NCBI GenBank assembly: GCA_902806085.1
Contig: CADCVH010000037.1
Coordinates: 1-40,825, forward strand
Reading direction: 5' to 3'
DNA: 40,825 nucleotides
Origin: an uncultured Rubrobacteraceae bacterium
GTDB taxonomy: Bacteria; Actinomycetota; Rubrobacteria; Rubrobacterales; Rubrobacteraceae
Part shown: one piece after another, positions 39,789 to 40,825 of the stretch
Layout: every line of letters begins with the position of its first letter
Position numbering within the stretch: position 1 is the first letter of the stretch
Program-made: the position numbers and the translations under genes
The notes under the pieces: model-generated
Told to the model about the DNA's origin: nothing
Seen by the model: the letters and a program-made list of their open reading frames with translations, nothing else
Databases searched by the model: none

Positions 39789-40220
39789 TTGAACGACCGC
39801 GACGCGGTGGCGCGGCAGCTCGGGCGCGGGCCCAAACCTTTCCGGGTGGCGGCGCGGTGCCCGTTCGGCCTGCCGAGCGTTATCGAGAACGAGCGGGCGC
39901 GTAACATGCCCACTAGCCTCTGGGTGACCTGCCCCAGCCTGGTTGCCGCGATCTCCAGGGTGGAGTCCACGGGCGGGGTGCGGGAGGCGGGGGACGCCGT
40001 CGGCGAGGAGGCGGTGGAGGCGATACACGAGGAGCACCGCGCCCTCTACGGGACGCGGGTGGCGGGGGTGCGGGATGGGGGGAACGTGAAGTGCCTGCAC
40101 GCGTTTACGGCCCTCCAACTCGCCGGGGCCATCCCGAACCCCGTGGCCGAATGGACGTTGGGGCGGCTGGAGCGGCCGTATCCCGAAGGGGGCTGTTGCA
40201 GCCAGGTCGCGGAAGAATAG
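39789..40220 (+). CDS. DUF501 domain protein
   Basis: A 143-residue protein of DUF501. Diagnostic parts are QLGRGPKPFRVAARCPFGLPSVIENE, then PTSLWVTCPSLVAAISRVES, and the ending KCLHAFTALQLAGAIPNPVAEW. The three Cys and one His at conserved positions (Cys-Pro, Thr-Cys-Pro, Lys-Cys-Leu-His) could bind a metal; this is inference. Function is unknown; the family is conserved next to eno and divIC in actinobacteria. It starts with TTG 39789 inside the preceding tandem repeat and ends 44 nt before a tRNA-like fragment. Confidence 0.88.
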   Translation: MNDRDAVARQLGRGPKPFRVAARCPFGLPSVIENERARNMPTSLWVTCPSLVAAISRVESTGGVREAGDAVGEEAVEAIHEEHRALYGTRVAGVRDGGNVKCLHAFTALQLAGAIPNPVAEWTLGRLERPYPEGGCCSQVAEE

Positions 40221-40263
40221 AAAACCCGACTGCTATCTCGGCGGCAGGCTTCGCGGCGCACGT

Positions 40264-40310
40264 GGGGGCGTAGCCCAACGGCAGAGGCAGAGGATTCAAG
40301 GTTCCGGTGT
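40264..40310 (+). other. Truncated tRNA-like sequence
   Basis: It starts GGGGGCG like an acceptor arm, followed by TA and GCC...GGC (D-arm), then a GGATTCAAGG segment that looks like an anticodon loop (CAA). Stem pairing around this loop is poor, and no T-arm (GTTCGAA) follows. The same GGGGGCGTRGC occurs at the tRNA-Leu start 473 nt later. It is probably a relic of a tRNA gene rather than an active one. Confidence 0.45.
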
Positions 40311-40331
40311 TCTGTACGATAACCGTTGTAG

Positions 40332-40787
40332 ATGCGCGGTCCGTACAAGAACAGGGAAGCCGAGTATGCCAGGGCCATCAAGTTGCGTAAGGCCGGTTGT
40401 GGATACAGGACCATAGCCGATCAAATCGGGGTGCCGTGGCGAACGGTCTGCGGTTGGGTGAGGCACATCCCGGTCGGCGAACGCGTGGCATACGAGCACG
40501 CGGCCACGCTCAGAAAGAGGAGGAGCTTCCCCGGTGGCAAGAGTGCGGTTCGTTTGAGGCTAATCGAGGAACGTGGTAACGTTTGCCAGGTCTGTAGGCT
40601 CGACGAATGGCTTGGCGAGCCGATAATGTTGGAGATGCACCGGAAGTGCGCGGGCGGGGGCTACACCAGGGAGAACGTGGTTCTTCTCTGTCCCAACTGT
40701 CATAGCACTACCGACACTTGGCGGAACAAGAAGCGCGGGGGCGTGGCGGAATCGGCATACGCGCCGGACTTAAAATCCGGTTCCTGA
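40332..40787 (+). CDS. HNH endonuclease with N-terminal helix-turn-helix
   Basis: A 151-residue protein. Residues ~10-45 are a helix-turn-helix (AIKLRKAGCGYRTIADQIG), followed by an HNH domain: Cys85-Q-V-Cys88, EMHRK with His103, Asn115 in TRENVVLLC, and Cys120-x2-Cys123-His124. Such free-standing HNH proteins occur in phages and near tRNA genes, and many are homing enzymes. The base composition is clearly less GC-rich than that of its neighbours and codon use differs (TGT, CGT, GTT, ATA). The last 16 residues (from Gly136) and the stop are encoded by the tRNA-Leu gene. No Shine-Dalgarno sequence precedes the ATG. Confidence 0.8.
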   Translation: MRGPYKNREAEYARAIKLRKAGCGYRTIADQIGVPWRTVCGWVRHIPVGERVAYEHAATLRKRRSFPGGKSAVRLRLIEERGNVCQVCRLDEWLGEPIMLEMHRKCAGGGYTRENVVLLCPNCHSTTDTWRNKKRGGVAESAYAPDLKSGS

Positions 40788-40820
40788 GAAGGATTGTGGG
40801 TTCGAACCCCACCGCCCCTA
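40737..40820 (+). tRNA. tRNA-Leu (anticodon TAA)
   Basis: A class II tRNA. GGGGGCG pairs with CGCCCCT (first pair G-T). The anticodon stem CCGGA/TCCGG encloses CTTAAAA with TAA at 40771-40773. The long variable arm pairs TCCT with AGGA, and the T-arm is GTGGG-TTCGAAC-CCCAC. The discriminator is A40820 and CCA is not encoded. Its first 51 nt overlap the HNH frame. Confidence 0.95.
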
Positions 40821-40825
40821 CCTAG

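Follow-up and report, generated by a model that had tools for sequence, protein, structure and literature searches.

The DNA window analysed here, 40,825 nucleotides in length, is the whole of one contig (C37) in the 4.41 Mb genome of an uncultured Rubrobacteraceae bacterium (G000), and the locus described lies close to its 3' end (Table 1). A DUF501 gene is followed there by a tRNA-like fragment, an ORF of 151 amino acids for an HNH endonuclease (40332-40787), and a tRNA-Leu(UAA) gene. The initial annotation had described the HNH frame as running 51 nt into a tRNA-Leu that supplies its last 16 codons and TGA stop, and the ARAGORN call for the tRNA bears this out. It had also placed a tRNA-like start 473 nt upstream of the tRNA, and the motif GGGGGCGTRGC on which this was based does occur in the window at 40264 and 40737 and nowhere else on either strand. 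The difference in base composition noted between the HNH gene and its neighbours exists as well, though it is modest, with a GC content of 0.60 and a GC3 of 0.74 against 0.63-0.72 and 0.81-0.93 for the three upstream genes.

Table 1. Features of the HNH/tRNA-Leu(UAA) locus, in window coordinates
Feature	Position	Strand	Evidence and remarks
DUF501 gene	39789-40220	+	Pfam PF04417, E 2.7e-19; in relatives, the chromosomal anchor immediately 5' of tRNA-Leu(UAA); adjoins it in about 30 genomes of the family
TATCTC, a decayed-looking putative remnant of the resident tRNA's -10 box	40234-40239	+	TATACT in relatives (G006 and others)
5' half of resident type A tRNA-Leu(UAA), ending at a break behind (C)TT of the anticodon loop	40264-40296	+	97% match over 32 nt to type A; junction common to G013 and G062
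Leader of 35 nt, left end of the unit, between broken tRNA and HNH start codon	40297-40331	+	Junction comparison; 33 nt in G013 and G062
HNH endonuclease core, 135 aa	40332-40736	+	HTH at residues 8-45; HNH/zinc module at residues 85-128
Last 16 HNH codons and TGA stop, inside the tRNA gene	40737-40787	+	ORF list against ARAGORN tRNA call
Type B tRNA-Leu(UAA), class II, long variable arm; replacement tRNA	40737-40822	+	ARAGORN; Rfam RF00005, 59.7 bits; 3' end abuts native host flank (contig C34)

The contig breaks off in an exact overlap of 127 nt (window 40699-40825) that spans the end of the HNH gene and the tRNA, its last 127 nt being identical to the end of contig C34. This second contig runs on into a nucleotidyltransferase-like gene, the same gene that lies 3' of tRNA-Leu(UAA) in the relative G006, and its flank after the tRNA resembles that of G003 and G004. 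The contig overlap and this synteny together support the junction from the fragment through the HNH gene to the tRNA. The break itself may possibly be a branching assembly node, for example one produced by a mixture of occupied and empty alleles.

Taken by itself, the shared 11-mer is weak evidence for a tRNA fragment. That the fragment is real follows from a longer match, since it corresponds, with 97% identity over 32 nt, to positions 1-32 of the tRNA-Leu(UAA) version that relatives carry and that is termed type A here. Its local variant AACGGC is also present in G003, G004 and G006, close relatives of G000. A fragment scoring as a full tRNA had been named as grounds against insertion; ARAGORN and Rfam make no call on it, and a full or split tRNA gene at this position is ruled out by the missing ARAGORN call. 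A search of related genomes for an empty form of the site was successful, DUF501 standing directly before one tRNA-Leu(UAA) gene. DUF501 is matched in 32 of the 39 genomes of the family, and in nearly all loci with enough sequence a single tRNA-Leu(UAA) gene follows at short distance. Another gene lies between the two in G018, and in G007 DUF501 is followed by a decayed tRNA-Leu fragment without a clear promoter (L022, about 1956-2000), no tRNA-Leu(UAA) having been found in that draft genome.

The tRNA-Leu(UAA) genes of the family come in two versions that are about 75% identical and have the acceptor stem, anticodon loop and T arm in common. Type A (GGGGGCGTAGCCCAAYCGGCAGAGGCAGAGGACTTAAAATCC...) is 73-75 nt long with a variable loop of 5 nt, and type B (GGGGGCGTGGCGGAAT...) is 83-86 nt long with the canonical long variable arm that is usual in tRNA-Leu. 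Class I genes for tRNA-Leu(UAA), those with a short variable loop, are found in G006 (L064:1688-1760) and in roughly 20 more genomes of the family. No UAA version other than type A was found in G016 and G027, both of them complete genomes, in which the remaining related tRNA-Leu has the anticodon CAA. Type A behaves as a real tRNA-Leu in these genomes because their rare TTA codons (15 among 87,530 aligned codons for G027) stand opposite leucine codons in alignments; with 13 of 15 and 23 of 25 TTA codons doing so, a reassignment of UUA where the only UAA tRNA found is class I is ruled out. In G000, type B is the only intact tRNA-Leu(UAA) detected. The tRNA-Gln of the window, which served as a control, is 94-100% identical across the same family.

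Two further genomes, G013 and G062, have the arrangement seen in G000: the 5' half of a type A gene ending at the CTT of the anticodon loop, a leader of 33-35 nt, the HNH gene, and a type B tRNA. By sequence comparison, the fragment is the dead 5' half of the resident type A gene, left behind, and the intact tRNA is type B. The earlier proposal that the unit carries or has duplicated a tRNA start is thus correct in one part only: the fragment, being the resident 5' half, is no copy of the start of the downstream tRNA, but the unit does carry a second tRNA-Leu(UAA), divergent and complete, with which the end of the HNH frame is fused. Since the insertion, after CTT, affects the tRNA and the anticodon-loop region that the known cyanobacterial tRNA-Leu(UAA) intron also occupies, a group I intron or its relic with the HNH gene as the intron ORF might be suggested. 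This is extremely improbable, as no group I match is obtained from Rfam even at a relaxed threshold, and the insert ends in a complete second tRNA with the type A 3' half absent from the locus, so that splicing would restore nothing.

The HNH protein matches the Pfam families HTH_23 (E 6.1e-5) and HNH (E 7e-4), both slightly below the cut-offs, and an HNH family in PHROG (E 2.6e-13). Its zinc cysteines, H103, N115 and H124 are invariant among 12 homologues. In the HNH motif (LEM-HRK, window 40626-40646), the residue before the catalytic histidine (H103) is missing in all three close copies; most relatives have Asp at this position, which is Asp, Glu, His or Asn overall. Given this missing residue, nuclease activity is not assured. 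The three close proteins are 72-79% identical and are under purifying selection, with dN/dS values of 0.10-0.16. Their conserved core ends exactly at the start of the tRNA, and the tail beyond it is whatever the tRNA encodes, read in a different frame in G013. A structure model of low confidence (pLDDT 62 overall, about 30 in the tail) has helices at residues 9-43 and a strand-strand-helix arrangement at 101-134. The tRNA-encoded C-terminal residues look incidental because of the core's end at the tRNA start, the frame change in G013 and the tail's pLDDT. A leader hairpin around the HNH start codon, present in G000, is absent in G013 and was dropped as a candidate feature. The ORF stands alone, outside any intron or intein, with no intron family detected in the Rfam scan, and by its combination of a nuclease of a homing family with a DNA-binding part the product is predicted to be a free-standing homing endonuclease.

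The unit is present in three of the 39 family genomes, each belonging to another genus; close relatives do not all keep the HNH gene and the fragment, and it was their retention in all of them that the initial annotation had held would speak against a mobile unit. Alignment of the three places the left border after the anticodon-loop CTT in each of them, and with empty sites in relatives and three occupied sites with one junction, the idea of a small mobile unit inserted at a tRNA has held up. Pattern scans for close relatives of the HNH gene returned only G013 and G062 among genome contigs, none in viral contigs and none in plasmids. The occupied genomes stand apart on a family tree of pyk, FtsB and DUF501, in which G062 fills only 17% of the columns, G000 joining three type A genomes at a support of 100/100 and G062 joining two such genomes at 98/95. 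Type A and type B labels require eight changes on this tree and are unclustered, 193 of 500 label shuffles being as low. The HNH proteins of G000 and G062 are more alike (79% identity) than those of G000 and G013 (72%), against the species tree, in a comparison of three sequences only. Vertical inheritance followed by loss is unlikely, because an A gene would not be regained when the unit was lost. Replacement of A by B is seen directly only three times, and other type B genes could be ancestral.

Since native flank lies directly after tRNA B in G000, the minimal unit consists of leader, HNH gene and tRNA B. In G013 and G062, tRNA B is followed by a further 1.7-3.4 kb of unrelated DNA, which differs between the two genomes, and then by the 3' half of type A. 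The stretch in G013 contains, as read from the sequence, a DUF4145-like ORF and an integrase-like pseudogene, and that in G062 encodes a 513-aa Mrr-type restriction endonuclease (PF04471, E 2.7e-30; L056:1070-2611) between tRNA B and the type A 3' half. Solo 3' halves of tRNA-Leu(UAA), starting from the anticodon loop and following unrelated DNA, are found at L057:2912-2954, L058:151-193, L061:1399-1457 and L065 (about 230-265), and 3'-half remnants are present in G033, G008 and G062; the solo halves probably mark former attachment sites of integrative elements. What looked like additional 3' tRNA halves in G023 and G020 proved on inspection to be overlaps of contig ends and not elements.

Such remnants bring into consideration an island moved by a tyrosine integrase into an attachment site in the tRNA-Leu(UAA) anticodon loop, with the HNH gene and a spare tRNA-Leu as cargo and with G000 as a remnant that lost the integrase. 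The distal type A 3' halves of G013 and G062, the integrase-like pseudogene of G013 and the 3'-half remnants of G033, G008 and G062 are all consistent with it, as is the attB of phage Omega, which ends in a tRNA-Leu anticodon loop (PMC3706429). The unit in G000, however, contains no integrase gene, has no distal tRNA 3' half and passes directly from tRNA B into native flank; the DNA after tRNA B differs between G013 and G062, which reduces the shared part to leader, HNH gene and tRNA; and the linkage of HNH genes to tRNA-Leu described below is widespread without tRNA duplicates. An island of this kind is accordingly considered unlikely. The extra DNA in G013 and G062 is instead read as separate integrative elements at the same anticodon-loop site, because the solo 3' halves, in G033 and G008 among others, point to repeated use of that site, though it may also be cargo that had belonged to the unit. 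From this extra DNA and the type A 3' halves behind it, a second recombination system also acts at the site, a point against the homing explanation given below.

A profile of the HNH core, built without the tRNA-encoded tail, was searched against 296 genomes of Actinomycetota and found 20 loci beyond the close copies. At 15 of these, a tRNA-Leu gene lies 25-100 nt downstream of the HNH gene on the same strand, and at two more it lies about 760-870 nt downstream, one of them being clearly the first of a tandem HNH pair. As a control, tRNA-Leu was near none of the 30 top loci of the generic Pfam HNH family, and persistence of the linkage with the core-only profile excludes a bias from the tail. 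The anticodons at 19 linked loci are TAA (nine), CAA (eight) and TAG (two), never CAG or GAG. UUA, UUG and CUA are low-use leucine codons of G+C-rich genomes, and a disturbed tRNA should be tolerated best at rare leucine codons. Displaced tRNA fragments were not found beside the distant HNH genes. Related HNH genes in Gordonia and Rhodococcus phages end in or abut tRNA-Asn, tRNA-Glu and tRNA-Gly genes (L051, L171, L169), the linkage in phages being wider than tRNA-Leu. That a decayed HNH gene merely happens to neighbour a tRNA and an accidental tRNA-like 11-mer might be proposed from the sheer number of HNH genes and from a tRNA-read tail without evident function, but chance of this kind is refuted, to the point of being negligible as an explanation, by the 97% match of the fragment to type A, the three identical architectures and the linkage of 15 in 20 against 0 in 30.

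A further set of loci was found in genus g35, which we take to be Streptomyces, as a bldA tRNA query matched it at up to 99%. The tRNA-Leu(UAG) gene in the bcp-rdgB interval of 57 genomes falls into 12 types (85% single linkage) with a median pairwise identity of 0.68, class I and class II forms both being present, and the control, bldA tRNA-Leu(UAA), matches the query with 87-99% identity in 60 of 61 genomes. The tRNA-Leu(UAG) locus (L104, L215-L284) often lies behind one or two tandem HNH genes, and HNH genes stand 5' of the tRNA in 37 of the 57 loci. The canonical tRNA type is present at five of the 37 loci with HNH genes as against 12 of the 20 without (Fisher p 5e-4, ignoring phylogeny, for which the Streptomyces statistics are uncorrected). 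The tRNA type requires nine changes on the HNH tree (shuffled mean 14.5; 0 of 200 shuffles as low) and 12 on the rdgB tree (14.4; 11 of 200). It tracks the HNH tree better than the species (rdgB) tree: HNH gene and tRNA type travel together. In Streptomyces the unit seems to take up all of the bcp-rdgB interval together with its tRNA. Since no left-over tRNA fragment was found in these loci or in other distant ones, the splitting step is seen only in the three family genomes.

It could also be that tRNA-Leu genes are swapped because a divergent tRNA evades integrases or tRNA-cutting toxins, with the HNH gene as a hitch-hiker and not the driver. The anticodon loop has apparently been used repeatedly as an attachment site in this family, and phage defence by tRNA cleavage, evaded by means of an amplified phage tRNA linked to a homing endonuclease, has been documented for SegB (PMC13096335). 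Selection for escape is nonetheless quite unlikely as the principal cause, given that a core-related HNH family is tied specifically to the 5' side of tRNA-Leu, that HNH type and tRNA type travel together and that the junction lies exactly beside the HNH gene.

The locus is probably best explained as a mobile cassette of HNH gene and replacement tRNA that is moved by homing of the free-standing HNH endonuclease. Its parts, the leader of 33-35 nt, the HNH gene and the type B tRNA-Leu, interrupt the anticodon loop of a type A tRNA-Leu(UAA) gene that was resident there. The HNH protein would make its cut in this resident gene, at the anticodon loop or close to it, and repair would copy the cassette in from a donor, the shared tRNA 3' half serving as the right homology arm. 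The divergent tRNA B would keep UUA decoded and, its sequence being different, may be immune to further cutting. As a guess, recombination between the GGGGGCGTRGC repeats could later drop the HNH gene and the fragment, with a clean type B gene as the footprint. Homing of such cassettes would likewise account for the HNH genes next to tRNA-Leu (UAA, CAA, UAG) elsewhere in Actinomycetota and for the 12 forms that tRNA-Leu(UAG) takes at one Streptomyces locus. A wider reading is put forward more tentatively, as a serious possibility with the odds slightly against it, in which these genes form a natural bacterial cleave-and-rescue drive: HNH genes of Actinomycetota would break tRNA-Leu genes for UUA, UUG and CUA and carry a divergent, cut-resistant tRNA with the same anticodon, and recurrent rounds would lead to hypervariability, including switches between class I and class II for the same codon.

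Genes for tRNAs are among the most conserved genes. In the lineages described here, one tRNA-Leu gene alternates between two architectures within genera, and another, in Streptomyces, occurs in 12 types at a single locus, in step with a linked nuclease family. Because HNH relatives adjoin unusually variable tRNA-Leu genes across Actinomycetota, selfish genes may be remodelling tRNA genes, which as a rule are strongly conserved. If the mechanism is true, a selfish nuclease can replace a core gene of translation and drive tRNA evolution, including the emergence of leucine tRNAs without the usual long variable arm, and the cassette would yield testable triples of nuclease, target and resistance, natural counterparts of engineered cleave-and-rescue drives, and a reason for the odd tRNA-Leu genes in genomes of Actinomycetota.

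Synthetic Cleave-and-Rescue drives combine a nuclease with a divergent functional copy of the gene that it breaks. The likeness to such drives consists in the split type A gene and the intact type B gene with the same anticodon, the function of B and cutting by the nuclease being predictions; unlike them, the unit described here is natural and bacterial and concerns a tRNA gene, with cleavage and resistance both presumed. Among natural systems, the free-standing HNH homing endonucleases that T5-like phages encode within tRNA clusters (HegA / F-TflIV type) are 38-39% identical to the core over about 75-90 residues; the open-access literature has only passing mentions of F-TflIV. A phage match (E 4e-11, 39% over 58% of the query) comes from an alignment that continues past the phage stop codon into its tRNA, the core alone being 38% identical over 76 amino acids. 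In the T5-like phages SmurfNell, Slocum and Arash, the HNH gene ends 6-10 nt inside the downstream tRNA-Leu, whereas the gene in the window is chromosomal, lies at a housekeeping locus and reaches 51 nt into the tRNA, and the resident tRNA is split and replaced. SegB of T4/T6, the most thoroughly studied of the tRNA-linked homing endonucleases found, has a free-standing gene linked to tRNA genes, and the tRNA so linked spreads with it by intronless homing (PMC13096335). SegB, which is likened here by description and not by sequence, acts in phage genomes, whereas here the linked tRNA, strongly different, replaces the host's own gene. The anticodon region is likewise the target of tRNA-Leu(UAA) group I introns and of the intron endonuclease of tRNA-fMet, which is described as specific for that region (Bonocora and Shub 2001, as cited in PMC3984707); in contrast to these, no intron is present here, and a second gene rather than splicing restores the tRNA. 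Islands and prophages with tyrosine integrases, such as Omega (PMC3706429), share with the unit a breakpoint in the tRNA-Leu anticodon loop and the functional tRNA left behind, but the unit contains no integrase, and the tRNA that is kept is a different one and not rebuilt from an identical attP. In the open-access papers searched, no prior description of a unit of HNH gene and replacement tRNA was found. Intronless homing and HNH genes ending in tRNA-Leu in T5-like phages were already known; to these, the present analysis adds as new features a chromosomal setting, a resident gene that is split, its replacement by a divergent tRNA, and a hypervariability of tRNA genes that is linked to the nuclease.
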